DNA from: Gammaproteobacteria bacterium 42_54_T18
GTDB lineage: Bacteria; Pseudomonadota; Gammaproteobacteria; Pseudomonadales; Ketobacteraceae
NCBI GenBank assembly: GCA_002163245.1
Contig: MAAL01000183.1
Coordinates: 1 to 53,256 of the forward strand
Length of the DNA: 53,256 bases
Direction of reading: 5' to 3'
Made by a program: the position numbers and the translations under genes. Shown here piece after piece: positions 11,757 to 53,256 of this stretch (within the stretch, counting starts at the first letter, position 1; every line of letters begins with the position of its first letter). A model generated the notes under the pieces. That model had not been told where the DNA came from. It was given only the letters and a program-made list of their open reading frames with translations, and made no database searches.

Positions 11757-14700
11757 CTACTCTACAAATTCCTCCATAAAATCTAAAGCAGCCTGCTGAT
11801 GTATAGTCGTTTTATGACTATCCCACAGTGCTTGGACTTTATCTTGATTAAATTCTTGTCGGTCAACATGAACCTGCGTTTTCAATTCTCCTTCCGCTGA
11901 TTCAGAAGGGCATTTTGCGAACACAAACTGATTATTGATCAATTCTAAAAACGGACCTGACTTACTAGAAGGCATGATAAAGACCAACTGTAAACCCAAC
12001 TGCTTGGTCAGGTAGTTGATCACCTCTTTTGAACGGGTTTCATCCATCCGAGAGAATGCTTCATCCACCAAAACCATGCGTAAATGACTATTACCTTCTT
12101 TAAATCTAAATGCTGATGTCACCGCGGCGGAACGTATAATATAAAATGGAGTTTCTGACTGCCCTCCACTACCTGTTCCATATTGGCTAAGGGGTATATC
12201 TGCTTTATCTTTCGGTTTCTTATAGATTTCGTATTTTCGATAATTCCGATAGTCTGATATACGTTCTAGCTCTCGTAGTGCCTTTTGCTCATCATCATCC
12301 AGCAACATATCCATCATATTATCGCGAACTTTCATGCTACGAGGCGACAAATCAATCTCATCAAGACTAACCCCGTCCCCTAGCTGAGGTTGATCAATTA
12401 TCTCCTTAAAGAAGCGCTGATATTCCTTAAACTCAGGCACCCATTCACTACCAAAACGATAGGTTTCTTGATCCGCACCAAAACAATGGTTCTGCAACTC
12501 TTCATTTAACTCATCAAGTACTCGCATACCATCGTTGATGGCTTGATAAATAGAGTGGCATAAATTAGTAACAAACGCGGTATTAAAAGCAATTTTAAGA
12601 TCAATGAGTTTGTCGTGCTTTTCCACTAGAATATTGTTTTTAAGTCGATTATGAATATTATCCAATTCTTTTTGTAATTGACACACACGGGAAAACATTT
12701 TACGCGTTATATCGTTATCATAATCCCGCTGAAACATAATTCCGTCATTAGGTTGGCAACGAGTATTGTGTTCACGCACAGCCACTTCTAGTTGACCAAT
12801 GAGTTTACGTAATTCATTTTCATATTCATTCAGCTGATTCTGAAGATGTTCACAATTTGTAGATTCCGCGGTTTGATCTGCATGAGCTAACCGTTCTTCC
12901 AACGGGTAATCAGGCCAGACTGGAGATATTTGTTGTAAAACCAGCTCTTTTTCATCGGCTACTTGCAGGGTTTCTTCTTTACGATCCGTAACCATCTTAA
13001 TGCTTCGTTCTATCGCTTCTAGCTTATTTTGCAAACCACCCGTACGTTTAAGCGTTTTCTTTTGTTGGGAATTAAGTTCAGCTCGTCTCGATTCCGCTTC
13101 TTTTAGCTCAGATTCAAGATCATCAAATTCCGTTAAATCCAGTTGTTGCAGCTTCTCTTCAGCAGACTTTAGAGAACGTTGAGACTCAACAGACGTTTGT
13201 ACCAAATCACCGATTTGTACGTGTTTTATGCGGTCTATTGCCGTTAATAACAACTGCGTCTCAGTAACTGCATCACTTGCTGCTTGTGCTTGTCGCCATA
13301 TATCATCAAGCTCATTACGTTTAGCAAGCAACGCACGCTCTCTAGCTCCTTGGCCAAATACAAGTTCACTATCTGGAACATCACAACGGTACATACTGTA
13401 CGAACCAGATCCCATACCGCCACGAGTCACGCCACGACGAGTAAAACGTAACGTTTCAGCATCCTCAACTCTCTCAACAGTTCCATAACTTGCGCAAAGA
13501 TAATATTCAGCGGTTTTATGAGAGAATTCCATCACATTAACCACGGAATTCTTTGGTAGATTTTGTCGTAACTTTTGATAATCCTTTTGAGCCTTTTCGC
13601 CCTGTATAACTCTAGCCTTGTTATTTCGCCCCCCCAAGGAACGAACAATAGTAATCGCTTGAGCTTCATAAGCAGACGCTACAATGATGGAAAAACGCGC
13701 GCCACCAATATACCCTTCAATTGCTGACTGCCACTCAGCATCCATTACTTCAACATAATCACATAATACTCGAGCATCTGCTTCGGGGCATTGTTTACGA
13801 ATAGCCTGTAGTGCTACAACAACATAAGGCGGATAGCTTGCCTGCTGTGTCTCTAGCGACGTTATTTCTAATTGCTTTTTTTCTGCTTGTTTTTCGTATT
13901 GTACTTTTTGCGTATTCTGACGCTCACGAAGATTGGCGACGCCATCACGAAGGCTTACACCATCTTCTCGGTCCTCTCGACCACTTAACGCATTAACCAG
14001 TTGTACATGTTGCTGTTGAAGCTTTACTACATCATCGAGCAATTGTTCAGACTGTGCGCCGTCAACCCAATCAACATTAAATAGGTACGTCATATCAGGC
14101 AACGTCTGACTTTTACCGCCAGACACCAAAATCAAATTCTTTTTTAACGACTTTTGACTAAACCCGATCATGTCTAGGGCCAAATTTGATTTTGTCAAAT
14201 GCTGCTGAATAGCCTCTGATGCTTGTGCATTGGCCCTTAATTGGGAATCTTGAGCGTAAACCGGCCCTTGTAATTGTTGCAACCGTTTATTGCTTTCTAC
14301 CACTAACTGCTCATAGTGGTCTTTGTCTCTTAGTGCAGGCACGCCCAATCGCTTTGCATTGAGCTCATCAACAATCAGTTGAATATCACGAAGTCGTCCA
14401 TCATTAACCGATATTTCCCGTTCAACCTCTTCAAACTCATTTCGTAACGTTTGTTGCTTTTGTTTTTCATCAAGATAATTTTTTTGTTCTGCTAGATAAC
14501 AGGCTTTTGCATAAATATAGGTATGTTCTTGCCATTCAATCCAACGTTCAACATAAATCTGACCCTGTAGCTGTGCATGGCTTAAGATATCGATACTTTC
14601 TTTCAGCTTACGTGCATCACCTTCCATGGCATGAACATTTTTCATTAAACCAGAAACAGAGCGAATAGCTTCACCAAGGTCTTTTTTCTCTAACACCTCA

Positions 14701-15407
14701 TTAGCAACAAAGGAATGGATGCCTTTTTTATTAGGCTTATAGGCCATAAAACCCGAAAAAGCCTTTGCAGCATTCATCGCTTCTCGGTCAGTAACTCGAC
14801 CGTTAATACCACGCAAAACAGCATATAACCGTGCCAAATAGGATTTCTTGGTATCGTATTTTTCTACCGATTTCTTACCAACTTCCCGACCCAGCAACGA
14901 ATATATTTCAGTGATAGGGACGACATGTTTGCCATCATCGTAACTTTTCACAAAGTGATCGATCGTTAACTGTTCGTTAGTAACAATCATAAACAATGTG
15001 CTATCAAGCTTCGCCTGTCGCTGACTGCCTACTGTTTCCAAAAAAGCCCGGTTTGCTATGATGGCAGTAAAAGGTTCTGCGCTTTCACCTTCTGTTGGGT
15101 GAAACACCGCAGCGATATATCCATCGGTAACCCAAGGCCTTGCATAGCTACCGTCATCGCAACCCAACACGTAGGATTCCAAGGTTCGCATTTGTTTACC
15201 GCTGCGACCTCGCTGGCTTGTCTCTTCTTGCCCTGGGTTATAAGAAAACAAGGTATCATGAGCAGCCGTCATAATCGTTTGCAACGCATCTGCGGCCGTT
15301 GTCTTACCGGAACCGTTTCCGCCGGATAACAAATTCACCGGCCCGTATTCAAATTCTTGATTGGGAATCCCCCCCCAATTGACATAAATAAATTTCTTTA
15401 AAAACAT
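11757..15407 (-). CDS. SMC-like ATPase of a Wadjet/Mks condensin (JetC/MksB)
   Basis: A 1216-residue SMC-type ATPase. Walker A is at about 29-37 (GGNGSGKTT), just after a short first strand, as in MukB/MksB-type proteins. Two long coiled coils flank a central globular region (about 535-620, VEVMDAEWQSAIEGYIGGARF) that may be the hinge. Near the C-terminus are an ABC signature (TGSGGQSETPFY) and Walker B (RMVLVDEAFSRMDE). Such proteins form a loop-extruding complex with a kleisin and a winged-helix partner. In Wadjet the complex recognises closed circular plasmids; in MksBEF it acts in chromosome organisation. The start lies seven bases after the stop of the JetB-like gene, so the three genes are one operon. 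Confidence 0.88.
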   Translation of the reverse strand: MFLKKFIYVNWGGIPNQEFEYGPVNLLSGGNGSGKTTAADALQTIMTAAHDTLFSYNPGQEETSQRGRSGKQMRTLESYVLGCDDGSYARPWVTDGYIAAVFHPTEGESAEPFTAIIANRAFLETVGSQRQAKLDSTLFMIVTNEQLTIDHFVKSYDDGKHVVPITEIYSLLGREVGKKSVEKYDTKKSYLARLYAVLRGINGRVTDREAMNAAKAFSGFMAYKPNKKGIHSFVANEVLEKKDLGEAIRSVSGLMKNVHAMEGDARKLKESIDILSHAQLQGQIYVERWIEWQEHTYIYAKACYLAEQKNYLDEKQKQQTLRNEFEEVEREISVNDGRLRDIQLIVDELNAKRLGVPALRDKDHYEQLVVESNKRLQQLQGPVYAQDSQLRANAQASEAIQQHLTKSNLALDMIGFSQKSLKKNLILVSGGKSQTLPDMTYLFNVDWVDGAQSEQLLDDVVKLQQQHVQLVNALSGREDREDGVSLRDGVANLRERQNTQKVQYEKQAEKKQLEITSLETQQASYPPYVVVALQAIRKQCPEADARVLCDYVEVMDAEWQSAIEGYIGGARFSIIVASAYEAQAITIVRSLGGRNNKARVIQGEKAQKDYQKLRQNLPKNSVVNVMEFSHKTAEYYLCASYGTVERVEDAETLRFTRRGVTRGGMGSGSYSMYRCDVPDSELVFGQGARERALLAKRNELDDIWRQAQAASDAVTETQLLLTAIDRIKHVQIGDLVQTSVESQRSLKSAEEKLQQLDLTEFDDLESELKEAESRRAELNSQQKKTLKRTGGLQNKLEAIERSIKMVTDRKEETLQVADEKELVLQQISPVWPDYPLEERLAHADQTAESTNCEHLQNQLNEYENELRKLIGQLEVAVREHNTRCQPNDGIMFQRDYDNDITRKMFSRVCQLQKELDNIHNRLKNNILVEKHDKLIDLKIAFNTAFVTNLCHSIYQAINDGMRVLDELNEELQNHCFGADQETYRFGSEWVPEFKEYQRFFKEIIDQPQLGDGVSLDEIDLSPRSMKVRDNMMDMLLDDDEQKALRELERISDYRNYRKYEIYKKPKDKADIPLSQYGTGSGGQSETPFYIIRSAAVTSAFRFKEGNSHLRMVLVDEAFSRMDETRSKEVINYLTKQLGLQLVFIMPSSKSGPFLELINNQFVFAKCPSESAEGELKTQVHVDRQEFNQDKVQALWDSHKTTIHQQAALDFMEEFVE

Positions 15408-15414
15408 GAAATAC

Positions 15415-16122
15415 TTAGCTCTCGGTATCTTTCAATTGTGATTCAATAACATCAACGTCTTCTGCTACATCGGATGCAACGACCCCACCCTCAACCAACG
15501 GCTGTAATGAATCCAACACCTGGTCACTTACATAACTAACAATCATTGGTCGAACTCTTATCCAAGCTTCACCGCTTTCGATATCTTCTTCTTTACGATA
15601 CTGAATCAAACGCAATTGCTTTAAACTACGAAATAGATCTTTACGCTGCGTTATATTATTTGGAAGTGTTTTCTTTAATAAGTTCTTTAGCGCGATATTT
15701 AGTGCTTCCAACGATAATGTCGCACAGCCATTTTCATCCACCTGCCCTTCACGAAGCGACTTTTCATATTGGCTACGCAACACCAATACCAATTCCACTT
15801 CACTTTTACTTAATCGTGATCGCATGCCGGATTTGAACGGCGGATCGTTTTCATCGACCATACCAGGAACTTCACTTCCGGGAGGATACAATCGTATAAA
15901 TTGAAATCGTGTATCATGTTGTACTCGAATACGAAGCATACTCAGATAATCATTCACCAGATTTTCTAAGCGCAAATAGCGATCATAAAGCAATTGCTCT
16001 CTCTGACTTTCATCACGGCACAATACGCCATAATCCATTAGCCGTATTAGTAATTCACTCAGCTCAGTGGTACTGATACCATTTTTTTCTAGTTGTTTAT
16101 CAATGGACGTCAACACTAGCAA
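15415..16122 (-). CDS. JetB/MksE-like condensin accessory subunit (DUF4194 type)
   Basis: A 235-residue soluble protein in the position and size of JetB/MksE, the winged-helix (kite) subunit bridging kleisin and SMC heads. The middle contains [15 protein letters not shown] and a helical segment [17 protein letters not shown] typical of DUF4194 proteins; the C-terminus is acidic and probably disordered. The TTG at 16122 directly follows the stop of the upstream gene. A GTG two codons later (16116) has better spacing to GAGGG, so the true start is one of these. Identification rests mainly on context plus these short motifs. Confidence 0.8.
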
Positions 16123-17568
16123 TTACCCTCGTTCAACCAATTCAATATAATATTCATCCGACTTTTTGATATACCCATCAATGCCATTATCGATGACATC
16201 AAGGGGACCTTCTATTCGAAACAGATATTCTGTATGTAAATTATTAACACTGCCCACCTCAATAGCATGAACAGCGCTTAATAAATCATCCGCTGTCAGA
16301 ATTGGTAAATGCCGAGTGCTGACGCGTTTACCCTTACCAATAGCCTCGATCAAATACGCGCGAGTATCCTTATCATTAATCGAAAATGCTTTATCAACAA
16401 TCTGTTGTACATATAGCTGTTTTCTAGCTTCTTTATCCAACAAAACAGGTTCATTAACCGAGGTGTTAACGATACGTTTTTCGCGCTCTTCTGTAAGTTT
16501 GATATGTGCAGGGTCCACAAAACCAACGCTGACGGTTTCCATCAACCCAGCAGTCACATCCAACAATGCAACCTGTTCATTTTCTGGTAACGCAGTCAGT
16601 GTCTGGCACACCGACACCAGGTCATCATTTCTTTGCTGGCTTAAAAAACTCATCTGACGAATAATAATATCTGCTCGCTGTGTAAAGCTTTGCAACGCCT
16701 TTCGTAACGAGGGGAGCATAATATCGCAAGCATTTTTCAAACGGCTCTCAATCGTATCCAAGACAAAATAGAGATAAGACTGATTTATCGCAACAACACC
16801 ATCTGGAAATATCTGGCGTAGTTTACGTTCAGCATCTGCTTTGAACTGCTTTCGTTTACGACGTATTTTTGCGATGGTATTTGCGATTTCTTCTCGATGT
16901 TTTTCCACGCTATCAGCAGATAAACGAACCGCGATATCAGGCTGAAAACGTTTCTCCATAAAATCAAAAAACTCATCACTAGCTTTCTCGACCAATGCAT
17001 GAGCCTCAACTTCTTTCACTAACTCGCGCTTTCGCTCATCCAACTCTGAAATAACATCAGTAAAGTCACTGATAATACGCTCAGAATACTCATAGGCATC
17101 TAACAGATCATGTACATCACCCATATCAAGAAAGGCATGAAGAGCATTTCGAGTATTACGGGTGTTTCTATGCCTCGTTCTAATACGGGAGGTATCGATA
17201 TCGATAAATGGCTGGGTAAACACTCGGCCTTGCCTGGTAAAACCGAAGGTGCTTTTCAGCGTTGCCTCATCCATCTGGCGCTCAAGCCAACCATATTCAA
17301 TTAGTGTGTTCAAAATCCATACAGCTAGCTCACGCTCATTGCGAAACCGGCTAATCCCTTCCTCTTCATCATCACTTTCCAATATTGGCGCACGTGTTAT
17401 CGCCTCTTGAAAAGTATCCAGCAACTGGTTGCGGTCTACCCCATGTCCGTAATCTGCCAAAGTGCTATATAAACGCAGGTAAAATAACCGCAAACACTCT
17501 ATTAGCACTTCTCGGTACTTGCTCGTGAGCGGCTTAAAAAACTGGCTATGATTATCAGTAAAAAACAT
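16123..17568 (-). CDS. JetA/MksF-like kleisin subunit of the condensin operon
   Basis: A 481-residue soluble, largely helical protein opening MFFTDNHSQFFKPLTSKYRE, an N-terminus I associate with JetA-family proteins. It has a winged-helix-like first half (about 1-120, ending FGFTRQGRVFTQPFID), a long coiled region (about 165-260, ERKRELVKEVEA and KIRRKRKQFKADAERKLRQ) and a compact C-terminal domain. This is the layout of a kleisin binding an SMC head and neck. It is the first gene of the operon and is divergent from gap. No fourth gene (JetD/MksG, TOPRIM-type nuclease) is present on either side. Confidence 0.82.
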   Translation of the reverse strand: MFFTDNHSQFFKPLTSKYREVLIECLRLFYLRLYSTLADYGHGVDRNQLLDTFQEAITRAPILESDDEEEGISRFRNERELAVWILNTLIEYGWLERQMDEATLKSTFGFTRQGRVFTQPFIDIDTSRIRTRHRNTRNTRNALHAFLDMGDVHDLLDAYEYSERIISDFTDVISELDERKRELVKEVEAHALVEKASDEFFDFMEKRFQPDIAVRLSADSVEKHREEIANTIAKIRRKRKQFKADAERKLRQIFPDGVVAINQSYLYFVLDTIESRLKNACDIMLPSLRKALQSFTQRADIIIRQMSFLSQQRNDDLVSVCQTLTALPENEQVALLDVTAGLMETVSVGFVDPAHIKLTEEREKRIVNTSVNEPVLLDKEARKQLYVQQIVDKAFSINDKDTRAYLIEAIGKGKRVSTRHLPILTADDLLSAVHAIEVGSVNNLHTEYLFRIEGPLDVIDNGIDGYIKKSDEYYIELVERG

Positions 17569-26816: not shown

Positions 26817-29009
26817 TTAAAAGTCATACTTCACACCAATTGATGTTGTTCTTGGCTTGTTTGGTCGTGCACCATCAGGTGAGCGTGACACAATATGCTG
26901 TGTATCGAAGATGTTTTCGGTTTTAAGGAATACTTCGACATTTTCTTCTAGCTGGATGCGGCTAATGAAGTCTGCAACGAATAGAGATTCAGTTTCTAAG
27001 AACTCACCCTCTTTATCATTACAGCCTGCAACCGAGCACATACCATCAATATATTTCGCAACGAGGTAATTATTCCAACCACTATCATGCTCTAGACCTA
27101 CACGCACACTAGCAATTTGTTCAGGTACATCTTTTAATAAGTACCCCGACAAGAAATCTTTTTCAGTACTATCTTCTGTGTATTTCGCATCAGTATAGGT
27201 ATATGCAACATCTATCGGCAAATTGAACTCACCAGCAGATATGATCGTACTAACCTGCAACTCTACACCAGAGATTCTTGCATCGCCGCCAACAAGGGTT
27301 CCAGATTCAGCTCCATTTGAACATTCAGAGCCAACAGAACAGTTCTCCGTTTTATTAAAGAAATCACTATAAAAGGCAATTGCTTCAACAAAAACACTGT
27401 TGTTATTAAAACGTACTCCGGCTTCCCAGTTTTTACTCTCTTCCGGATCTTCGTTATCCTTTGCACCGCCACCTAACGGAGAGAACCCTTTGTGGACGCC
27501 AGCTAACACCTGCCACTGATCAGAAAGGTCATAAGTAAAGGATACGCCAGGTAACCAGATTGATGTGTCGTTGCTGGTTTTTGTCGGTGCATCCGTACGG
27601 GCTGTTGTACCATACTGTTTTCGGCTACTTTTTATATCTTCATAACGTAACGCTAGATTTACATTTAGCTCATCATTCACTTGCCAAGAATCGACAAACC
27701 AACCAGTTAGTGCGTCGGCGTGTTCTACCCTATTGTTACTACCAGAAACGTCATCAACAGCTACAACAGCAGGCGGTACGTACTCAAGCTCCCCTGTTGC
27801 TAATTGATTATATTCCTCAACAGGCTGAAAACGATCCATCTCATCATGATGTGCTCTAGCACCTACCGCAAACTGGTGATCACCAAAATCGATATCGAAA
27901 TTAAACTGAAGCCCTTGCGAAATATAATCGCGGTTGTTGTGCTTATATTCCAATTTATTTTCCGCGACAGTTCCGTCGAGTATATTTTGAGCATCTATAT
28001 TTCCTGCATTAGCAGCATCAATTAATTTAGAACCATTAACATCATAAAAATCACCGCTTTTCGCATCGTACTTAAACCAATCTCTCGAAAACTCATTCCG
28101 ATAAATTGTCGCCGTAGAAGTCACAGTATTTGACCACTGAAAAATATGCGTTAAGTTAACACCTTTGTGATCATTATCCATCTCATCGATGCTAGACAAC
28201 CCATAACGTCGATTCGGATCATTATCAAAATCATCATCCGTTAAACCAAGATAGGTTTCGTTAGACACCTCATCAGAACGTTGCAACTTCAATAAAACAC
28301 TCTGTCGCTCATCTTCCCAACCCAACTTCACTACATAGTCAGAAATATCATATTCGGGCTCATCTGAAGTACCGTCAATATCTTTAAAGCCATCACCGTC
28401 TCGCTGAACCGTTTCAATTGAAAGTCCCCAACCGTCCTTCTTGCCACCTACAAACGCATGAATATCCGTAGAACCACGCTGATTAATAGACAACACAGCT
28501 GAACCACCAAACTCTTCAGGGATTGGCGTAGATAACATGTTCACCACACCACCCGTAGTTTGCGGGCCATGGCGCAATAAAGGAGCACCTTTAAGCACTT
28601 CAAACATCGACATACGCATAGCAGTCGGGAAATAATAAGCAGCAGGGTTGGAGTAAGGTGCAGGGGCAATCAACACACCATCTTCCATCAATGTTATCTT
28701 CTCGCTACGCTCACTTGTTGCACCTCGAATACCGATATTAGGACGTAAACCCAAGCCATCCTCTTCTCGAATATAGATACCAGGTACCGTTTTTAAGGCT
28801 TGGTTGATATCTGTAACAACCCCAGTCTCTAATTGTTCAGCAGTAACAACAGCACCTGAACCAGGAAGGTTTCGAGCGTTTTCAGTACTACCAATAACAA
28901 CCATCTGTTCAATGCTTCTGGCATTAGCAGACTGTTCTGCAACGGCAGTTACCGCAGATAACGGCAATATGGCTAACGAAATACTTAAAGATAACAACGA
29001 CTTTTTCAA
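26817..29009 (-). CDS. TonB-dependent outer-membrane receptor, FecA-like
   Basis: A 730-residue outer-membrane receptor for an iron complex. A signal peptide spans about 1-24, followed by a TonB-box-like stretch (IEQMVVIGS) and the plug domain (about 45-150). Its motif PNIGIRGATSERSEKITLMEDGVLIAPAPYSNPAAYYFP resembles the ferric-dicitrate (FecA) branch. The barrel ends in YDF with a C-terminal Phe, as outer-membrane proteins do. There is no N-terminal signalling extension, so it should not control a FecIR-type sigma factor. Two Fur boxes lie just upstream, implying repression by iron. The adjacent TonB operon is the obvious energy source. The ligand could be another hydroxycarboxylate siderophore. 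Confidence 0.92.
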   Translation of the reverse strand: MKKSLLSLSISLAILPLSAVTAVAEQSANARSIEQMVVIGSTENARNLPGSGAVVTAEQLETGVVTDINQALKTVPGIYIREEDGLGLRPNIGIRGATSERSEKITLMEDGVLIAPAPYSNPAAYYFPTAMRMSMFEVLKGAPLLRHGPQTTGGVVNMLSTPIPEEFGGSAVLSINQRGSTDIHAFVGGKKDGWGLSIETVQRDGDGFKDIDGTSDEPEYDISDYVVKLGWEDERQSVLLKLQRSDEVSNETYLGLTDDDFDNDPNRRYGLSSIDEMDNDHKGVNLTHIFQWSNTVTSTATIYRNEFSRDWFKYDAKSGDFYDVNGSKLIDAANAGNIDAQNILDGTVAENKLEYKHNNRDYISQGLQFNFDIDFGDHQFAVGARAHHDEMDRFQPVEEYNQLATGELEYVPPAVVAVDDVSGSNNRVEHADALTGWFVDSWQVNDELNVNLALRYEDIKSSRKQYGTTARTDAPTKTSNDTSIWLPGVSFTYDLSDQWQVLAGVHKGFSPLGGGAKDNEDPEESKNWEAGVRFNNNSVFVEAIAFYSDFFNKTENCSVGSECSNGAESGTLVGGDARISGVELQVSTIISAGEFNLPIDVAYTYTDAKYTEDSTEKDFLSGYLLKDVPEQIASVRVGLEHDSGWNNYLVAKYIDGMCSVAGCNDKEGEFLETESLFVADFISRIQLEENVEVFLKTENIFDTQHIVSRSPDGARPNKPRTTSIGVKYDF

Positions 29010-29034
29010 CTTAAAACCCCCAATAAACTAAAAC

Positions 29035-29053
29035 AATGATATTGATTCTCATT
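29035..29053 (-). promoter_or_regulatory. Fur box 1 (receptor promoter)
   Basis: The 7-1-7 core TGATATT-G-ATTCTCA matches the TGATAAT-n-ATTATCA pattern at 12 of 14 positions. It is centred at 29044, 35 bp upstream of the receptor start. Confidence 0.75.
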
Positions 29054-29069
29054 CGTTGGGGCGAATATT

Positions 29070-29088
29070 AATAATAACGATTCTCATT
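29070..29088 (-). promoter_or_regulatory. Fur box 2 (receptor promoter)
   Basis: The core TAATAAC-G-ATTCTCA, centred at 29079, is a second Fur-like site sharing the half ATTCTCATT with box 1, 35 bp away. Confidence 0.65.
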
Positions 29089-29148
29089 GTCAATGATATA
29101 GGTTAATTTTAGGTCAGCGCCATGATAATTGGGCCGGAATTTGGAAAA

Positions 29149-30381
29149 TTAGAGGGTAGGTTCTTTTTCTAATTGAGCTAATGTATACCTTTCCCACTCT
29201 CTCGCGGCTTTGAAAGACTTCTTGTGTTCCTTAGCTTGACGAAATGCCTGCAGGGCAGCCTCTAACTTGCCTAAATTAACCAAGGAGAGCCCCCTCAGCA
29301 AAAAATTTTGACCGGGCAGTAACACCCCCCCTTTCGAACTGGCTTTTGTAGATGCCTGAACACAAGACTCATAATCAATCGCTTGATAAAACACACCTGC
29401 CAACCGGGCGAATAGCTCCCCGTCTCCCGATAACTTAGCCGCTTTTTGATACGCAGGGATTGCTTTGTCATGCTGGCCTGATTGAGACCACAAACCCGCC
29501 AGCAATGTTTGATGCTTTAGATTAAGCTTTAGATCCCCATTCGCCATTGCTTTCTCTAGAACAACAGCCGCTTTATGGGGCAATCCTTGCTCTAGAAACA
29601 TATAAGCCAAATTCAGCTGCTCCTTGCCTTTACCAAGCTCACCGTGCTCGTAAGCCGCATCAAAAGTTGTTAATCGCTTTCGATTCAAGCCTAGCTCCCC
29701 GTACAACCCCGCCAACTGTTTTAAATATTGAGGGTTCGGGTAATGCCGAAGTAACACCTCATAAGTCGCAACTGTATTTTTTATATCCTGTTTTGCAAAG
29801 TACAACGCAGCCTTAAGCTGTAACCAAGACTCTGGAACAGAAAACTGACTTGAGACAGTCTCGTGACGACTAATAGCTCTAATTACAAAATCCAAGGCCT
29901 CATCGTATTTCGACAATTGGTAATGCGCTTGTGCCAACATAATAAATGCAACGGCACTTGGCGACTTCACAGAATCTACCCACAATAATAAGCTGTTTAT
30001 TGAATCCTGGTATGCTTCCGATTGAAAATACAATTGCCCCAACACATAACGAGCATTAAGCACTAGCGCCTCTGGCACATCTTTTTGCTTTAGAACCTGC
30101 TGATAAGACTGAATAGCATTGGTGTACTGCCCTTTTGTGGCATAGACAAACCCTTGATAGTTCCACACCTGAGCCAGTGCATAACTTGACAGTCTTTTCT
30201 TTTTACTCAGCTTATCTAACACTGCTAACGCCTCGTCAAACGCCTCTTCAGCAACATAGTTTTGAGCTTTTGTAAGTTGCCTGAAAGTTTTGGCATCAAT
30301 GGCACCGGATGCCGCCTTCGCATTCACATGCTGGCCAGAAGCAATAACAACTAAAAACAAAAACAAACAAAGTGATCGCAT
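29149..30381 (-). CDS. TPR-repeat protein of the TonB operon
   Basis: A 410-residue periplasmic protein with a signal peptide (about 1-21) and roughly nine tetratricopeptide-like helix pairs, for example VWNYQGFVYATKGQYTNAIQSYQQVLK and LLAGLWSQSGQHDKAIPAYQKAAKLSGD. It is the last of six genes; its ATG overlaps the tonB stop in TAATG. TPR proteins commonly close this type of TonB cluster in marine gammaproteobacteria and may scaffold TonB or the receptor. The exact role is not established. Confidence 0.85.
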   Translation of the reverse strand: MRSLCLFLFLVVIASGQHVNAKAASGAIDAKTFRQLTKAQNYVAEEAFDEALAVLDKLSKKKRLSSYALAQVWNYQGFVYATKGQYTNAIQSYQQVLKQKDVPEALVLNARYVLGQLYFQSEAYQDSINSLLLWVDSVKSPSAVAFIMLAQAHYQLSKYDEALDFVIRAISRHETVSSQFSVPESWLQLKAALYFAKQDIKNTVATYEVLLRHYPNPQYLKQLAGLYGELGLNRKRLTTFDAAYEHGELGKGKEQLNLAYMFLEQGLPHKAAVVLEKAMANGDLKLNLKHQTLLAGLWSQSGQHDKAIPAYQKAAKLSGDGELFARLAGVFYQAIDYESCVQASTKASSKGGVLLPGQNFLLRGLSLVNLGKLEAALQAFRQAKEHKKSFKAAREWERYTLAQLEKEPTL

Positions 30382-30998
30382 TATTTCTCCATCCTAAAAA
30401 CGATCTTTGTACGTACACCAAAAACCTCAACGGGATCGCCGTTCTCTACCCTCGGTTTATATTTGTAGCCTTTTGCAGAGCGTTTAGCCGCAGAGTTAAA
30501 AATATTACTGGGGCTCGACTCAACCACAATAATGTCTTTAACCCCTCCTAGTTTCGTAACGGTATATTCTAAAACAACAAAACCTTCAATTCCTCGCCGG
30601 GATGCTCTACGGGGATATTCTGGCGCTAATTTACTCATCGGTAAATATTCACCATCCGACGCTTGCAACCCTAGGCCAATAGACAAATCCATCTTCCCTG
30701 TTAGCTGATCCGGCGTCATCACCGAAAGCGCTGATGTGTCTACTTTTTGTTGAACCAATTGCTGTTGAGGCATTATTTGTTCGGGTTCTTTAAGTACCTT
30801 TGGTTTTTTAGGCTTATCAATAAGTCGCCGCGTCTCAATGTCAACATCCGGCATTAGGATGTTGGGCAACGAGACAGTCCGCCCTATCAGCCTATCTCCA
30901 TCTGACGATGAAATCAGCATAGCCATCAGTGTTAATAAACATAGAGTAACGAATGCAGCAACGGGAAGAACAAGCAATGTTCGCTGTAGAACATTCAT
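30381..30998 (-). CDS. tonB: TonB energy-transducing protein
   Basis: A 205-residue TonB. One N-terminal membrane helix (about 10-30) anchors it in the inner membrane. A Pro/Lys-containing periplasmic linker (about 60-90) is shorter than in E. coli TonB, as in TonB2-type proteins. The C-terminal domain (about 118-205) begins PEYPRRASRRGIEGFVVLEYTV and ends with the RTKIVFRMEK strand. It carries proton-motive energy from ExbB/ExbD to outer-membrane receptors. It overlaps exbD by one base (TGATG). Confidence 0.92.
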   Translation of the reverse strand: MNVLQRTLLVLPVAAFVTLCLLTLMAMLISSSDGDRLIGRTVSLPNILMPDVDIETRRLIDKPKKPKVLKEPEQIMPQQQLVQQKVDTSALSVMTPDQLTGKMDLSIGLGLQASDGEYLPMSKLAPEYPRRASRRGIEGFVVLEYTVTKLGGVKDIIVVESSPSNIFNSAAKRSAKGYKYKPRVENGDPVEVFGVRTKIVFRMEK

Positions 30999-31426
30999 CA
31001 GTTTTGTTTGGCCGCAGTAGTCGCCAATGAAATCTTGCTAGGTACAACGACTTCTCTTGCCGCGTCCAATACCGCAGTAAAGGTCTTTATTGATGAATGT
31101 TCATCCGCCTGAATCACAAGCCCGCCTTCAGGGCTTTCAGCGTGTAACCGCTCAATATTGGCCCGCACCGCTCGCACATCAACTTGCCTTTTATCAATCC
31201 AAATGCTGTTATCCGCGCTAATGGCAACTAAGATAGTGGCATTATCTTTTTGTGCAGCAGTCTGTGACTCTGGCCGATTCACCTCAACACCTGACTCTTT
31301 AATAAAGGATGCTGTAACAATAAAAAATATCAGCATGATAAACACCACATCCAACATAGGTGTTAAATCAATGGCACTATCTTCTTCACTATCGTTTTGG
31401 TAAAGATAACTACGTCGTCGACTCAT
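30998..31426 (-). CDS. exbD: ExbD, TonB-system proton channel subunit
   Basis: A 142-residue ExbD/TolR-family protein. The motif AIDLTPMLDVVFIMLIFFIVTASF (about 17-40) is the single membrane helix and includes the protonatable Asp of the channel. A periplasmic domain follows (GLVIQADEHSSIKTFTAVLDAAREV). Its start overlaps the exbB stop in ATGA, so the two are translationally coupled. Confidence 0.93.
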   Translation of the reverse strand: MSRRRSYLYQNDSEEDSAIDLTPMLDVVFIMLIFFIVTASFIKESGVEVNRPESQTAAQKDNATILVAISADNSIWIDKRQVDVRAVRANIERLHAESPEGGLVIQADEHSSIKTFTAVLDAAREVVVPSKISLATTAAKQN

Positions 31427-31962
31427 AAATGATGATCCAATATTAAGTTCTCTTCAATGAGCTGGGACTCAGCCTTGGCAGTTCGAGTTATTGAGATATT
31501 AGCGAACACACCAGACAACGCTGCAACCATACCTGCCATTGTGGGTATGGTTGCTTTTGAAACCCCTGCAGCCATCAGCTTTGCATCGCCACCGCCAGAC
31601 ACTGCTAACACTGTAAATACATCAATCATACCCGTCACCGTACCTAACAGGCCAAACAGCGGACACAGTGCTATCAATGTTCTGATTAGCGACAAATTGC
31701 GACCAATCAATACGCGGCTTTCAGATATCCACTGTTGACGTGTAACAATAGCGTTCCAAGATGAGCGCTCATCTCGTGCTAGCCACTGCTGCTCCAGCGT
31801 ATAGAAATGTTTTTTATAGTCTCCACGCAAGAACCACAAGCGTTCTAACATTAACACCCACAACACAAACGTTACTACTGCGATAAGCCACAATACCGGG
31901 CCACCCGCAGAGAAAAATTTCTCTAACGTTTGCAACAAATCTAATAAGAATAACTGCATCAA
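31423..31962 (-). CDS. exbB: ExbB, MotA/TolQ/ExbB-family channel subunit
   Basis: A 179-residue inner-membrane protein with three hydrophobic helices. The family signature LIRTLIALCPLFGLLGTVTGMIDVFTVLA is at about 91-119, followed by the conserved ATIPTMAGMVAALSGVFANI helix. Such short ExbBs partner with a longer ExbB-like protein and ExbD in TonB2-type systems. The TTG at 31962 abuts the previous stop; the next codon, ATG 31959, may be the real start. Confidence 0.92.
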   Translation of the reverse strand: MMQLFLLDLLQTLEKFFSAGGPVLWLIAVVTFVLWVLMLERLWFLRGDYKKHFYTLEQQWLARDERSSWNAIVTRQQWISESRVLIGRNLSLIRTLIALCPLFGLLGTVTGMIDVFTVLAVSGGGDAKLMAAGVSKATIPTMAGMVAALSGVFANISITRTAKAESQLIEENLILDHHL

Positions 31963-33351
31963 TTAGCGACCTGTGCGAGAGGCTATAATACCCGCACTTT
32001 GTTCTTCCAATATATGCAAAATGTTTTTAGCTTTCCCTAACAACAATGTATGTAACAACAGTATTGGAATAGCGACAATCAAACCTAGTACGGTTGTCAC
32101 CAACGCACTAGAAATACCTCCAGCCATTGCTTTAGGGTCTCCAGCCCCATATACAGTAATCGCCTGAAAGACAATAATCATCCCAGTAACCGTCCCCAAC
32201 AACCCTAATAGAGGCGCTACCATTGCAATAATTTTTAACACTGGCAATCCAATTTCAATCGCTGGTCGCTCTTTTAATATAGCCTCATCCAGCTTCAAAT
32301 CTAGACCATCAGTGTCTAATTCGGGGTGATCTTCCGCTACTTTAAGAATTCGACCAAGCGCATTATTCGCATTGACATTACTATCCGCAAGTTGCCGCTT
32401 AATAGAGCTCGCTACGTTTGACAGCCCCAAAAAGCGCCACAGTGCAATCAGCAATCCAATACAGCCAACAACACTAATCACATAACCCACAACCTTACCT
32501 TGATGCCAACGCTCCAACCACGTAGGTGTATTGATTAGTGCTTTTAACAATCCCCCGCCTGCGGGCCCGGTAGGATCAACTCCCAAAGCATAAACACCAC
32601 CTCCTAGCTGAACAGCTTCAATACCGTCAACATAACCCACTGGCTGTCGTGGCAATGCGTAAACTCGAGCTGTATCTGAATCAAACCCTAAGTATTCACC
32701 TTCAGAAATCAGGTTAAACGTACCAACACGAACAACCTCACGATTCTCTTGCGTTCCGACTGATGTCGTAAATTTGCTCACCCTACCTGATTCCGTCATC
32801 TCTCGGTGCAACTCGTACCAAAATGCTTCAATCTCTTGAATACTTGGAAGATCAACACCGGTGTTCATTTTTTTAATAAGCTGATCGAGAAACGGCTTTC
32901 GATCATCAAATTCTGCTGAAGTAATAGACATTGTTAAATGACTTCGCATATCACCCGCCGCACCGGTTAAATGACCAAATAGCTCTTTTAAGGAACCCAA
33001 CCGCTCATCACGTAGCCTTTTTTTCTCTTTAACAAGCGTTTCGTTGTCATTAAACGCTGATTCGAGAGTTTCACTTTTTGCCTCTAACGCTGCAATTTTT
33101 GCGTTGGCTACATCTATCAATCTTTGACGATCAACTTTCGCTTTTAAAAACTCCGCTTCTCGTTGCTTATTTCGTTGCTTATCTCGGCTACGCCCTTGTT
33201 TAACTTCTTGGAGTAATATATCTAACGATAGCTTTTTTGATGATTCCGACGTTGTTGCTGAAGAATTCTTTTGCTCATCAGCGGTACTACTTATAGACAT
33301 AAGGGAAAAGGCAATAAGCATCAATAACCGTAACGTTTTTGCTATATTCAT
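31963..33351 (-). CDS. Long ExbB-like protein with periplasmic coiled-coil domain (TtpC-like)
   Basis: A 462-residue protein with two parts. A signal peptide (about 1-24) and a periplasmic, charged coiled-coil region (about 40-130) lead to a folded domain up to about 270. Then come membrane helices of the MotA/TolQ/ExbB family (about 275-440), with the signature PVLKIIAMVAPLLGLLGTVTGMI and ALVTTVLGLIVAIPILLLHTLLL. This is the architecture of TtpC, the fourth component of the Vibrio TonB2 system, which is needed for energy transfer to TonB2. Its ATG overlaps the DUF3450 gene stop in TAATG. Confidence 0.88.
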   Translation of the reverse strand: MNIAKTLRLLMLIAFSLMSISSTADEQKNSSATTSESSKKLSLDILLQEVKQGRSRDKQRNKQREAEFLKAKVDRQRLIDVANAKIAALEAKSETLESAFNDNETLVKEKKRLRDERLGSLKELFGHLTGAAGDMRSHLTMSITSAEFDDRKPFLDQLIKKMNTGVDLPSIQEIEAFWYELHREMTESGRVSKFTTSVGTQENREVVRVGTFNLISEGEYLGFDSDTARVYALPRQPVGYVDGIEAVQLGGGVYALGVDPTGPAGGGLLKALINTPTWLERWHQGKVVGYVISVVGCIGLLIALWRFLGLSNVASSIKRQLADSNVNANNALGRILKVAEDHPELDTDGLDLKLDEAILKERPAIEIGLPVLKIIAMVAPLLGLLGTVTGMIIVFQAITVYGAGDPKAMAGGISSALVTTVLGLIVAIPILLLHTLLLGKAKNILHILEEQSAGIIASRTGR

Positions 33352-47997: not shown

Positions 47998-48890
47998 TCT
48001 GCGCTTACACTCCTATCTTGAGATGTTTTGATAACGCTATTTTGTAAAAACAACGGGTTTAGCGCATCACTGATTGTCACTTCTGCACCAAACATTTGAC
48101 CGTAAACTTTGCCAGTTTTTGAATGCAACGTAATATCTGCACTCATTGCATTCGGCTGATCACTGACAACATTCAACGAAACATAGAAATCGGCCCCTTG
48201 GGGTATCAATTCATATTGCTCATATCGCTTAGCACTACTCGGCAAACTGCCTTTATTCGAATTGATTTTCACCCAAACTAACATCGCTTGATACAACACA
48301 TCATCAACAAACGGGTTAGTTGATGACACTCCGAATTGCCCTTGATTATCTTTTGCAATCGTTGGCGCATTACATCGCAACATCAAACCCTTTTCATCAA
48401 TATCCAACACCTGTTGAATGCTTTGAAAAGACGGGCCGTGAAACAACGTTCCATTTTCATACGGAGCTGTCGTTTCTAGGCTAGGCTCGCCGTTTGTCAT
48501 AATGTCGCTATCAAGGCCGCTAAGCTGAGGCGCTACAGTAACCTGCTTAACCAAAATAACATCGGCAATATAGTGATTAACACGAAACCCTTTCTGGTTC
48601 GTACTCCACACCTTCACTTGTAACGTTAAGTCGGCATCACTGGATGCTATCTGTTCAACATCCAAAGCCAAGTGTTCAGTTTGTTTACCGTCGAACACTA
48701 CCCCTTTATATAAGCGGTAATTATCATACGCAAAAAATCGATAGCCAGGACACAAGTCCTCACACACACTCACCATCCATTGAGTGGCACATACGGTTGG
48801 AAGTACCGCGTTACCACCAAAGCAATGATCCGCTAAAAAGCTATTCGCTTCTTCGCGGATCGTTCGCGTTACAGTGAGTGTGCCATTGAC
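47994..48890 (-). CDS. pfaA: PfaA C-terminal dehydratase domain, in the -1 frame
   Basis: This frame continues PfaA after the KR domain. From 48890 it reads VNGTLTVTRTIREEANSFLA, then DHCFGGNAVLPTVCATQWM, the N-terminal hotdog of a polyketide-synthase-type dehydratase with its catalytic His. It goes on through TLFHGPSFQSIQQVL and NPFVDDVLYQAMLVW (second hotdog, acidic residue). The first ATG in frame (48776) lies inside the domain, 38 codons late, so independent translation would give a broken fold. The frame ends in an ATGA overlap with pfaB. Together these show it belongs to PfaA and is reached by a -1 shift at 48890-48896, or that one A is missing from the sequence. Confidence 0.85.
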   Translation of the reverse strand, partial: VNGTLTVTRTIREEANSFLADHCFGGNAVLPTVCATQWMVSVCEDLCPGYRFFAYDNYRLYKGVVFDGKQTEHLALDVEQIASSDADLTLQVKVWSTNQKGFRVNHYIADVILVKQVTVAPQLSGLDSDIMTNGEPSLETTAPYENGTLFHGPSFQSIQQVLDIDEKGLMLRCNAPTIAKDNQGQFGVSSTNPFVDDVLYQAMLVWVKINSNKGSLPSSAKRYEQYELIPQGADFYVSLNVVSDQPNAMSADITLHSKTGKVYGQMFGAEVTISDALNPLFLQNSVIKTSQDRSVSAE

Positions 48891-51800
48891 TTTTTTACCG
48901 CTGAACTTCCCTTACTTGCAGCGTCCGTTCCATTTGAAGGGTCACCTCCATCTGCACGCATATCGTTACCGACCATTATTTGCAATCGATCATTGGTTGC
49001 AGAAGAAAGTTCATTCACAAACAATTCAGACCCAGCATCCAATGGAATAACGTATACGTTTTTCGCCATAAACATCTTTTTAAGCTCAGGTGTCACCATA
49101 CCACCGTCCCAAGGGCCCCAATTAAAGGAAACCACATGACAGCTTGGATGTTGCTGCTTAAAGCTTAACGCTGTTTTGTTCAATATTTCATTGGCAACAG
49201 AGTAATCGGCTTGGCCTTCATTTCCATAATAACCGGCAGCAGATGAGAACAGTGCCAAATGGGTTAACTTGGCAACATCAACAGCACTAAGTAATGCAGC
49301 TAAGCCTTGTACTTTTGTTGAATATACTGCATCAAAGTCTTCTACGGTTTTTTGTTCGATGTATTTGTCCGCAAGAACACCTGCCCCGTGAACAATACCG
49401 GTTACTGGGCCCAGGGTTGCAATAGCAGATGCAAGTTTACCTGGCATTGCATCAACATCAGTCACGTCAGCACTTACGTACAACGCCTGGCTTCCCGTTG
49501 CTTCAATAGCAGTGATAGCTTGAGATATTTCTCGTGCAGACAATACTGGGCGCAATAACTTACTGACCTTAACCGGCGTAGGCTTCTCTCCCTGAGCAAT
49601 AAGCTCTTGCATCGCTAACTTTTTAAGCTCAGCTTCATCAAGGCAATCATTAACCCACTGAGGCTCTTCACTATGATAATCAGATCGACCTAAAAGAATG
49701 AACTTACACTGATAACGTGCAGCTAACTTTTCTACACATTTTGTAGTTACACCTTTCGCCCCACCGCTCACAAGGAAAACAGAATCTTTCGATATTGAAT
49801 TTCCTGCAGTTAATGAGTAACTATCTACGCCTTGAGTTTGTAGTGTCACACGCCCATTGGCGTTATAACCCACTTCAACCAAACTACTATTCACATCATA
49901 CAACTCAGCAAGTATGACATTGGTCGCCTCTTCTGCTTTTGTACTTGATGCAATATCGATGCTACGACAATGAACGTTTGGCCACTCCAATTTCAGTGTC
50001 TTGGTTAGACCAAACAAACCGCCTTGAATAAGATCCTCGCCATTAGCAATACCGTAACCTAGTGAACCATCCATTCTAACAACGGAAACAAAAGCACTGC
50101 GCCCAGTTTCTGCCGCCGTATTTAGCGTCACCTTCAAATGCTTCGCTAACAAGAAGCTGTTCAGCATTAACGCTTTACTTGCTTCAGGATAACTAACACC
50201 CTTTTTTGTTGACGCAATTGTCGGTTGAATCGCAAACACTGCACCAATGTTACCTATGTCTTTCTGAATGGTTGCAAGGCTATCTACTAACGCACCTTCT
50301 GATGTGTCGGCCATAACAACACAGGGGATTGATTTAGCAACCGAAGCACAAGGTTTAACAATTGCTTTCGGTAATCGAAGCACTGCTGGCTTCCAACCTT
50401 TTGCCTCTAGCGCACTCATTAACAGAGCGGTAATCTTAGATCCATCATCAACAACCAGTGCAACATTTTCTGTTGGCGTATTAACTTGCAATGCATCAGG
50501 AGCCGACAATGCTACGATTTGAGCAATACTACTAGGTGCCTTTTCATCCGCAATTTCACTGGCACTTCCAGCAACTGCCGTGGTTGCCGCCACACTAGAA
50601 GCAGCCGCTCCGCCTGAAGCAGAAACTTGCGCCTTCATGTAATCAACAATCTCGCCCAAAGTACGCAGCTCAGACAACTCACTAGCATTTAATTCTGGAA
50701 GTTCAGGCAATTCATCTTGAACCGCTCCGAGTATTTCAACACGCTTGATAGAATCAATTCCAAGGTCTGCTTCCATGTCCATTTCAAGTTCAAGCATTTC
50801 TTCTGGATAACCGGTTTTTTGTGCTACCGCAACCATCATCACTTGATTGATTTTGTTCAGATCCAGAGCGGGTGCTGCTTGTTCAGCAACTGGAGCGTCA
50901 CCTGTTGACACTTGCTTTTGCATGTAACCAACAATTTCACCCAGTGTTCTTAACTCTGACAATTCGCTTGCATTTAACTCTGGAAGCTCTGGCAATTCAT
51001 CTTGCACTGCTCCGAGAATTTCAACACGCTTAATAGAGTCAATACCAAGGTCGGCTTCCATGTCCATTTCAAGCTCAAGCATTTCTTCTGGATAACCGGT
51101 CTTATCTGCAACCGCTGCCATCATCACTTGATTTATCTTATTCAGATCCAAGACTGGTGCAGTTGTTATCGCGGCTGCTACAGGTGCTGGCGCAGCAGCA
51201 GATACCTGCTTTTGCATGTAATCAACAATTTCACCCAACGTACGAAGCTCAGCAAGGTCACTCGCATTTAACTCAGGCAGCTCAGGTAACTCGTCTTGAA
51301 CCGCGCCTAGTATTTCAACACGTTTGATGGAATCGATACCAAGATCCGCTTCCATATCCATTTCAAGCTCAAGCATTTCTTCTGGGTAACCGGTCTTTTC
51401 TGCAACCGCAGCCATCATCACTTGATTGATTTTTGCAAGATCCAATGTCGGTGCTGATGTAACAGCCGCCACTGCAACAGGAGCGGTGCTCGCTGCAGGC
51501 ACTTGCTTCTGCATATAATCAACAATTTCACCCAAGGTACGAAGCTCAGCAAGATCACTCGCATTTAACTCAGGAAGCTCTGGCAACTCATCTTGAACCG
51601 CGCCAAGTATCTCTACACGTTTAATAGAGTCGATACCAAGGTCCGCTTCCATGTCCATTTCAAGCTCAAGCATCTCTACTGGGTAACCAGTCTTTTCTGC
51701 AACCGCAGCCATCATCACTTGATTGATTTTTGCAAGATCCAATGTTGGAGCTGTGGATACAACTACCGCTGCAACAGGAGCAGATCCGGCTGCAGGCACT

Positions 51801-53256
51801 TGCTTCTGCATGTAATCTACAATTTCACCTAAAGTACGAAGCTCAGCAAGGTCACTGGCATTAAGCTCAGGTAGCTCTGGCAATTCATCTTGAACAGAAC
51901 CTAATATCTCTACACGCTTGATAGAGTCGATACCTAGGTCCGCTTCCATATCCATTTCAAGCTCTAGCATTTCCTGCGGGTAACCCGTTTTTTCTGCTAC
52001 CGATGCAAGCATAACTGCGTTGATTTTTGCAAGATCAAGGGTTGGCTTTGCAACGACCGGTGCTGCTACTGGTTGCTGAACAACTTTCTTCGTAACAATA
52101 ACTTTTGGAGCAGCCGGTTTCGCTGGAGCAGGTGTAATAGGCGCTTGCGCAACGGGCGCTACAACAGCCTGCTGTACTTGTACTTGTACTGGCACGCGCT
52201 GAACTGAAGCTTGAGGTGCAACCTGTTCAGTTACACCATCTACTACGACACCAGCAGCAGATTGAAACTGCCCTTTCATCATACGCAAAGCAGACGTTGA
52301 GTTTTGCGTATGATTCTGCAAGTACTGTTCATGAACACGTAATGTGTCAGCCTGATAGGAATGGAACATCATCATGCTACGTTCTACACTTTCAGGTATT
52401 TTCTGACCTTGCGCTGCTAGCTGAAGCTGTTGCGACATAAGGTTTTCAAATGCATTAGCGTATTGCTGTGGTGATTCTAAATACTTCTGATGAACACCTA
52501 GAATTTCATTTTGATTTTGGTAGAAACTTTCAAGACCTGCTCCAATGCTATCGGCTAAGTTTGCATTGGGAACAGGCTGTGAATTAACAACCGGGTTAGC
52601 AACAGCTACTTGAGCTTGAGCAGGCTGAGTAGCAGGCGCAACTTTTGGTGCTGGAGCAGCCTGCACTGGCGCAGCTTGCGCTTGTACGGGTTGCTGTACG
52701 GGCTTAGACACTGGCTTGGCTTGCGTTACAGGCTTTGCTTGCTGAACTGTTTTTGCAACTGGCGCTGGAGCCGCTTGCTGGATCACCTTCACTTCTTGAG
52801 CAGGCCCTTTAACCTGGTGCCCATCAACTAACGCATCCGCATAGATTTTTTGCGTTTTATCACTAACGTAATGATGCCCACCCAAACTTAGAGAAAGGGG
52901 CGATTTCTTACGTAACGTAATATCTTCACGCTCCATCTCATAAGGATCGATGCTAGACAAAGAAATACCCGCCACTGCCAATTGAATAACGGCTTGTCGA
53001 AGCTGAACGTCAGCATCTTTCTTAGGATTAGCATTTAGAGCAATGGATATGTGTGGCTGATCGCCCAAAATATTGCTGACCAACTTAGTCAACGTATTCT
53101 TTGGACCAAACTCAACAAAAACACGTCCGCCAGCGTCATAAATATTTTCAATAGACTCTTTAAAACGTACAGGCTCTAAGATGTGATTTTTAAGTGCCTT
53201 CTTAATAGAAGCTGGAGTACTTGGGTAAGCAACGCCAGTTCCATTTGCGAATACAG
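48869..53256 (-). CDS. pfaA: PfaA: end of MAT, five ACPs, ketoreductase (5' end outside window)
   Basis: The right edge cuts the gene inside the malonyl/acyltransferase domain; coding continues past ATG 53092 to 53256 (AGGRVFVEFGPKNTLTKLV). A long Gln/Pro/Ala/Val linker follows, then five tandem acyl carrier domains, each with the attachment Ser in LGIDSIKR. The KR has the nucleotide loop LVSGGAKGVT and catalytic S-Y-N in FSSAAGYYGNEGQADYSVANE. The zero frame ends at TAA 48869-48871, ten codons after the slip site, giving a product without dehydratase. Expected PfaA architecture is KS-MAT-ACPn-KR-DH, so the stop is premature by one domain unless the ribosome shifts. Confidence 0.93.
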   Translation of the reverse strand, partial: VFANGTGVAYPSTPASIKKALKNHILEPVRFKESIENIYDAGGRVFVEFGPKNTLTKLVSNILGDQPHISIALNANPKKDADVQLRQAVIQLAVAGISLSSIDPYEMEREDITLRKKSPLSLSLGGHHYVSDKTQKIYADALVDGHQVKGPAQEVKVIQQAAPAPVAKTVQQAKPVTQAKPVSKPVQQPVQAQAAPVQAAPAPKVAPATQPAQAQVAVANPVVNSQPVPNANLADSIGAGLESFYQNQNEILGVHQKYLESPQQYANAFENLMSQQLQLAAQGQKIPESVERSMMMFHSYQADTLRVHEQYLQNHTQNSTSALRMMKGQFQSAAGVVVDGVTEQVAPQASVQRVPVQVQVQQAVVAPVAQAPITPAPAKPAAPKVIVTKKVVQQPVAAPVVAKPTLDLAKINAVMLASVAEKTGYPQEMLELEMDMEADLGIDSIKRVEILGSVQDELPELPELNASDLAELRTLGEIVDYMQKQVPAAGSAPVAAVVVSTAPTLDLAKINQVMMAAVAEKTGYPVEMLELEMDMEADLGIDSIKRVEILGAVQDELPELPELNASDLAELRTLGEIVDYMQKQVPAASTAPVAVAAVTSAPTLDLAKINQVMMAAVAEKTGYPEEMLELEMDMEADLGIDSIKRVEILGAVQDELPELPELNASDLAELRTLGEIVDYMQKQVSAAAPAPVAAAITTAPVLDLNKINQVMMAAVADKTGYPEEMLELEMDMEADLGIDSIKRVEILGAVQDELPELPELNASELSELRTLGEIVGYMQKQVSTGDAPVAEQAAPALDLNKINQVMMVAVAQKTGYPEEMLELEMDMEADLGIDSIKRVEILGAVQDELPELPELNASELSELRTLGEIVDYMKAQVSASGGAAASSVAATTAVAGSASEIADEKAPSSIAQIVALSAPDALQVNTPTENVALVVDDGSKITALLMSALEAKGWKPAVLRLPKAIVKPCASVAKSIPCVVMADTSEGALVDSLATIQKDIGNIGAVFAIQPTIASTKKGVSYPEASKALMLNSFLLAKHLKVTLNTAAETGRSAFVSVVRMDGSLGYGIANGEDLIQGGLFGLTKTLKLEWPNVHCRSIDIASSTKAEEATNVILAELYDVNSSLVEVGYNANGRVTLQTQGVDSYSLTAGNSISKDSVFLVSGGAKGVTTKCVEKLAARYQCKFILLGRSDYHSEEPQWVNDCLDEAELKKLAMQELIAQGEKPTPVKVSKLLRPVLSAREISQAITAIEATGSQALYVSADVTDVDAMPGKLASAIATLGPVTGIVHGAGVLADKYIEQKTVEDFDAVYSTKVQGLAALLSAVDVAKLTHLALFSSAAGYYGNEGQADYSVANEILNKTALSFKQQHPSCHVVSFNWGPWDGGMVTPELKKMFMAKNVYVIPLDAGSELFVNELSSATNDRLQIMVGNDMRADGGDPSNGTDAASKGSSAVKKSMAHSL
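48890..48896 (-). other. A AAA AAG slippery heptamer between PfaA KR and DH frames
   Basis: Zero-frame codons are GTA AAA AAG. A -1 slip leads straight into the dehydratase frame (KK then VNGTLTV). The SD-like AGGGAA lies upstream with exactly 10 nt between it and the heptamer, as AGGGAG does in E. coli dnaX. Only a short CGCG/CGCG stem is seen downstream. Confidence 0.55.
50636..52048 (-). repeat. Five tandem ACP-coding repeats
   Basis: Five near-identical units about 290-300 bp apart, with the phosphopantetheine Ser codons near 51922, 51622, 51325, 51030 and 50750. Units differ mainly in the short Ala/Pro/Val linkers. Each keeps MDMEADLGIDSIKRVEILG. Confidence 0.92.

Follow-up and report, generated by a model that had tools for sequence, protein, structure and literature searches.

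To our knowledge, programmed ribosomal frameshifting has been established experimentally in few stable bacterial chromosomal genes, with prfB and dnaX as the standard examples. In Escherichia coli dnaX, the Shine-Dalgarno (SD)-like element has a spacing of 10 nt. The site of this gene, which yields tau and gamma, combines an in-phase A_AAA_AAG heptamer, an SD-like stretch, a near hairpin and an immediate stop in the -1 frame (PMC5009743, PMC7282821; all sources are cited here for the portions of them that were available), and ribosomes that shift terminate one codon later (PMC5009743). The roles can also be reversed, with a stop just after the site and tau made by frameshifting (PMC3711429, PMC5009743). 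Several of these role-reversed dnaX genes carry 7-10 A and are argued to act at transcription (PMC3711429), and one from Chlorobium has E. coli-like stimulators (PMC5009743). A single-nucleotide change reverses the roles when the shift is near 50% (PMC5009743; see also PMC3711429). As to the gene considered here, the canonical pfaA of EPA/DHA synthesis belongs to a pfaA-D operon, has the domain order KS-MAT-ACP-KR-DH and is described as a single multidomain product, the available portion of PMC4882568 mentioning no short form; further FabA-like dehydratases (DHs) are contained in PfaC (PMC4882568). The literature searched, mostly without subscription journals and with supplements excluded, yielded no account of frameshifting in a PUFA synthase gene. 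The first 300,000 characters of the frameshift review PMC5009743 contain neither polyunsaturated, polyketide nor fatty acid. In the portions available, PMC3711429 mentions no fatty acid and no Shewanella (polyketide occurs once, for a cyclase), "truncat" occurs in neither PMC12895367 nor PMC8174602, and "isoform" is absent from PMC12895367.

The stretch analysed here (the window, 53,256 nt) corresponds to an entire contig in a draft genome (6.66 Mb, 199 contigs), and we propose, with a probability of roughly 87%, that its pfaA undergoes a programmed -1 ribosomal frameshift, dnaX-like in action, at the point where PfaA passes from its KR to its DH domain. The zero frame of pfaA (48869-53254, minus strand, as for all features below) codes for the short product and is open at the contig end; it holds five ACPs (five Pfam PP-binding matches) and the KR domain (PF08659, 49106-49780, residues 1159-1383 of P0001). 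The contig end cuts the gene inside an apparent MAT domain and the N-terminal part lies elsewhere in the draft; KS and most of MAT are thus outside the window because the latter is a single contig, and KS and AT are found in the congener G003. The -1 frame (48896-47994) encodes the PfaA dehydratase (PF14765; PF21089 below cut-off) and ends in an ATGA overlap with pfaB (47997-45532; ORF list and Pfam), followed by pfaC (45495-38053; ORF and Pfam), with two KS and FabA-like DHs, and pfaD (38016-36397; ORF and Pfam PfaD_N). ACP repeats, KR and PS-DH, then pfaB, pfaC and pfaD, are the features of PfaA in a PUFA synthase, and the domain order and operon are those of the canonical gene. Elsewhere in the window, the region 11757-17568 (minus strand) has the look of a Wadjet-like defence cluster, in which a 1216-aa protein carrying an SbcC/RAD50-like Walker B match lies close to a match to JetA (PF18982), and 26817-33351 (minus strand) encodes a TonB-dependent receptor, a TPR protein and a MotA/TolQ/ExbB-family protein, perhaps a TonB system.

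In the KR-bearing frame, the minus strand reads GCG GTA AAA AAG TCA ATG GCA CAC TCA CTG TAA. The heptamer A_AAA_AAG (48896-48890) stands in zero-frame phase (GTA AAA AAG), with its six A at 48896-48891, and conforms to the X_XXY_YYZ pattern of bacterial programmed -1 sites. The TAA stop (48871-48869) begins at +25 nt, counted from the heptamer's first base, as it does in all four matching genomes of the window genus; six sense codons separate AAG from this stop, the count of ten codons in the initial annotation holding only if GTA and the stop are included. The last -1 stop before the heptamer is a TAA at 48914-48912, from which the -1 frame stays open to the TGA at 47996-47994 that overlaps the pfaB ATG. 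The heptamer therefore sits between two stops about 40 nt apart, with a near stop in one frame and a long open reading in the other, and both the coordinates and the intact DH confirm the earlier observation that the zero frame ends after GTA AAA AAG while the -1 frame continues into the dehydratase. In-phase A_AAA_AAG occurs five times, the pfaA site included, in the 14,807 codons of window frames of at least 300 aa, and simple arithmetic puts the probability that a stretch of 13 codons contains the heptamer by chance at about 0.4% for each independent lineage.

The window also carries the AGGGAA that had been noticed 10 nt before the heptamer (48912-48907). Its anti-SD duplex energy is -5.4 against a mean of -2.2, a value matched or bettered at 10 of the 82 in-phase positions upstream (E. 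coli anti-SD). In each signal-bearing gene, the stretch 7-22 nt ahead of the heptamer pairs with the anti-SD better than most in-phase positions upstream; single elements are modest (per gene, 0-17 of 82 positions do as well; the best 9-mer lies 19-21 nt upstream in G100 and G152), and the combined Fisher p is 1.5e-4 over 12 of the 15 sequences, which leave out the near copies G002, G175 and G990 and are still related. Codon choice around the site (-7 to +30) is also conserved in most pairs: codons for the same residue are identical in 9/9 cases for G925/G955 and G1060/G955, 9/11 for G068/G152, 9/10 for G000/G004 and 8/9 for G004/G003, and the effect is weak in G000/G003 (6/9), on a background of 43-57% identity over the stretches compared (45% for G925/G955). 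Finally, 35 tRNA genes were read in 21 of 30 loci (the Rfam matches total 41), and the three tRNA-Lys genes in this set are all UUU, with no CUU.

Could the break be an assembly error or a recent pseudogene, an A having been lost in the reads or in the strain? The site is a homopolymer and several of the assemblies are fragmented drafts, but relatives decide against a lost A. A DH search of 145 genomes gave 11 matches, the window's own included; four of the five window-genus genomes match, and the fifth (G001, 84% complete) gave no match. Further overlapping draws covered the order twice (390 genomes with 18 matches at E 0.001, then 389 with 10 at 1e-30, all already known), the class (369 genomes, 18 matches) and the phylum (398 genomes, 14 matches at 1e-15), besides small family and order searches. 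DH lies in a separate frame in the four window-genus genomes and in G025 and G100, which belong to other families; L002 shows the break of G002 and is not counted separately. Alignment of pfaA from relatives, as had been suggested, shows heptamer and frame break to be conserved in all six split genes, A_AAA_AAG being in zero-frame phase each time. Measured from the heptamer's first base, the zero-frame stop is 19-40 nt away and the last -1 stop 9-21 nt, and 31-58 nt separate the two stops. Six separate assemblies from three genera, with six or seven A, thus break at the same place, one of them lying in a contig of 353,753 bases and having a zero frame of 2390 aa, as expected from a frameshift rather than a lost A. 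The initial annotation had also pointed to two intact seven-A runs in pfaB: one is indeed A7 (46793-46787) and the other is T7 on the coding strand. Besides, DH retains in the alignment the His and DxxxQ motifs, which we take to be its catalytic motifs, and its dN/dS is 0.088 between the window and G002 and 0.09-0.23 in three of four window-genus pairs, those computable, a range that speaks against a pseudogene, with synonymous differences near saturation except in the closest pairs (tested in the window genus and g18). The frame break is thus confirmed as real and not a sequencing error, and we give an error or recent decay practically no credence.

The same heptamer also occurs where no break exists. 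In nine in-frame pfaA genes it stands in phase where KR meets DH, 173-209 nt downstream of the KR motif: G068, G175 and G152, from one genus, and six from outside the order (G1095, G990, G925, G1060, G955 and G1089). They include two genomes of a Vibrio-like genus, g413 (f228) being judged so from its match to a Vibrio replicon (24% coverage, 82% identity). In the locus of G1095 (L123, 3934-11977), the KR-DH part (a 1160-aa ORF) and the preceding 1513-aa ORF appear to be separate genes. A -1 slip would meet TGA or TAA at +9 nt in eight of the nine in-frame genes and at +15 in G1095. At seven other in-phase A_AAA_AAG sites in nine loci, a small control, a -1 stop is found at +9 in none and within +15 in one, and no 45-nt fold reaches -15.8 kcal/mol, compared with seven of the nine in-frame pfaA genes. 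Like E. coli dnaX, these in-frame genes unite the in-phase heptamer, the SD-like stretch, a near hairpin and an immediate -1 stop; here the enzyme concerned is a fatty acid megasynthase, which would lose a dehydratase. Both frame arrangements lead to the same two predicted products, PfaA without DH and PfaA with DH. That the short product is the unslipped one, as first supposed, holds for the six split genes and is reversed in nine of the 15 signal-bearing genes, in which slipping would give the short form.

Downstream folds were computed from h+10 or h+12, and stems starting earlier would be missed. A hairpin begins 6 nt after the heptamer (h+13) in eight of the nine in-frame genes, that is, 12 nt downstream of the first base of the P-site AAA. 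In a 45-nt window, synonymous recodings as stable as the natural sequence numbered 13, 4 and 5 of 1000 for G068, G175 and G152, and 0, 0, 2 and 0 of 500 for G990, G925, G1060 and G955. At 66 nt the folds are less exceptional (74, 41 and 33 of 1000; 0, 0, 14 and 5 of 500, in the same order). The stem of G1095 needs the longer window (50 of 500 at 45 nt, 0 of 500 at 66 nt), and G1089 showed no exceptional fold (293 of 500). At this position the folds of the split genes are weaker, with 50 (G100) and 77 (G025) of 1000 recodings as stable in the 45-nt window and 28 and 198, respectively, in the 66-nt one. A close hairpin was sought in the window genus and none was found, 287-683 of 1000 recodings of the first 45 nt being as stable. 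This genus has instead a distal hairpin of 35 nt (48861-48827 in the window), whose first base comes 28 nt past the end of the heptamer and 7 nt past the zero-frame stop, with 90% of cells paired in the alignment. Its 45-nt folding energies in G000, G002, G004 and G003 are -21.1, -22.6, -20.2 and -22.9 kcal/mol, with 2, 1, 13 and 2 of 1000 recodings as stable (1, 2, 36 and 6 at 66 nt), and it would face a ribosome terminating at the zero-frame stop. Three alignments (4, 4 and 2 distinct rows) contain one-sided changes of stem pairs and no two-sided ones, and covariation neither proves nor refutes the stems. The likeness to dnaX claimed at the outset stands for the SD-like stretch and the heptamer phase, is extended by the hairpin of eight of the nine in-frame relatives, and fails for the window genus as regards the close hairpin: judged from its sequence, the window would act like dnaX but is no full dnaX cassette.

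Since the distal hairpin follows the zero-frame stop, and this stop closely overlaps the DH frame, one could imagine that DH is a separate protein made by re-initiation. However, the last -1 stop precedes the heptamer by only 9-21 nt, and the first ATG, GTG or TTG of the DH frame comes 60-120 nt after it in the six split genes; in three of them (G000, G002 and G100) every such codon lies beyond the His motif. Re-initiation also leaves the in-frame genes unexplained, and we regard it as highly improbable. Alternatively, RNA polymerase could slip on the A run, which is the kind of substrate used in transcriptional slippage, and yield mixed mRNAs that are translated normally; G100, with seven A, would suit such a process. 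Yet the run counts six A in the other 14 of the 15 signal-bearing genes, PMC3711429 (portion available) ties transcriptional slippage to runs over seven, and both the SD-like elements and the hairpins at 6 nt suit a ribosome better. Transcriptional slippage is therefore, in our opinion, very unlikely. With six A (seven in G100), pfaA differs from the several role-reversed dnaX genes that have 7-10 A.

Under ribosomal frameshifting, the ribosome reading GTA AAA AAG would pause, aided by the upstream SD-like contact and, in most in-frame relatives, by the hairpin where the mRNA enters. In some of the ribosomes, tRNA-Lys(UUU) would then re-pair on AAA AAA. For the window, this means that unslipped ribosomes would stop at the seventh codon after AAG and release PfaA without DH (KS-MAT-ACP-KR), and slipped ones would make PfaA with DH (KS-MAT-ACP-KR-DH). 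In the in-frame relatives, the roles would be swapped and the two products unchanged. We infer that the slip occurs, perhaps with an efficiency near one half, at which swapping the roles would be almost neutral, and that both proteins are stable and used.

The heptamer is in phase in 15 of the 32 PfaA-like KR|DH junctions examined and absent from 17: G035, G075, eleven g239 genomes, G505, G906 and two Persicobacter plasmids (in the printed stretch). This count leaves out L071 (G767; a locus without KR motif), L072 (G755) and L073/L074 (G769), which are weak or partial matches. The heptamer is also absent from fifteen more distant loci and six others, L028 being common to both sets. That the Persicobacter pfaA genes lie under no annotated feature was set aside as a lead, the records being nearly unannotated and the genes in frame. 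Because 17 of 32 junctions manage without the heptamer, the short product is not required in every PUFA synthase. One may then ask whether frameshifting is only corrective, with a tolerated indel rescued in few lineages and the short protein as waste. Besides these 17 junctions, the apparently derived state of the split form under midpoint rooting would fit this idea. It is weakened by the in-frame relatives, which need no rescue and keep the heptamer, the -1 stop at +9 (8/9) and mostly the hairpin, and we consider it unlikely, though worth keeping in mind.

In the KR+DH tree (26 rows, midpoint root, five of the eleven g239 genomes included), the root has in-frame signal-bearing genes to either side. 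Two changes to the split form are required in this tree (G025 with the window genus; G100), and heptamer absence also requires two (G906; the group of f22, Persicobacter, g239 and G505), with heptamer gains rather than losses being possible. The second split origin is less sure because G100, G906 and G1089 have long branches. A grouping of the nine signal-bearing genes then known had 95/95 support in a 19-row KR+DH tree and was abandoned, being found neither in the DH-only tree nor in the 26-row tree. The window resembles role-reversed dnaX in its stop just after the site and in a slip that would lead to the long product. By analogy, pfaA may have undergone a dnaX-type role reversal, which predicts a shift efficiency near one half. 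The genome's own dnaX frame (L107, 662 codons) is without A6G or A7 run, unlike its pfaA, and so gives no internal comparison.

Altogether, the pfaA site would bring an established mechanism to a gene new to it, and the comparative support is good. The ratio of the two products would fix how many DH sites each PfaA complex holds, and a pool mixed from both forms could determine how frequently the DH of PfaA acts rather than those of PfaC. We lean slightly towards a wider proposal, in which many gammaproteobacterial PUFA synthases, those with an in-frame pfaA included, would make two PfaA isoforms in a set ratio. These forms would mix and tune which dehydratase acts (PfaA or PfaC), and hence double-bond placement; with a slip near one half, the frames would have been swapped at least twice with the ratio unchanged. 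Frameshifting in pfaA would set the domain make-up of an omega-3 fatty acid megasynthase, and the two frame arrangements of pfaA would add a natural example of dnaX-type role reversal. Moreover, pfa clusters transferred to E. coli for EPA/DHA production may yield two PfaA proteins unnoticed.
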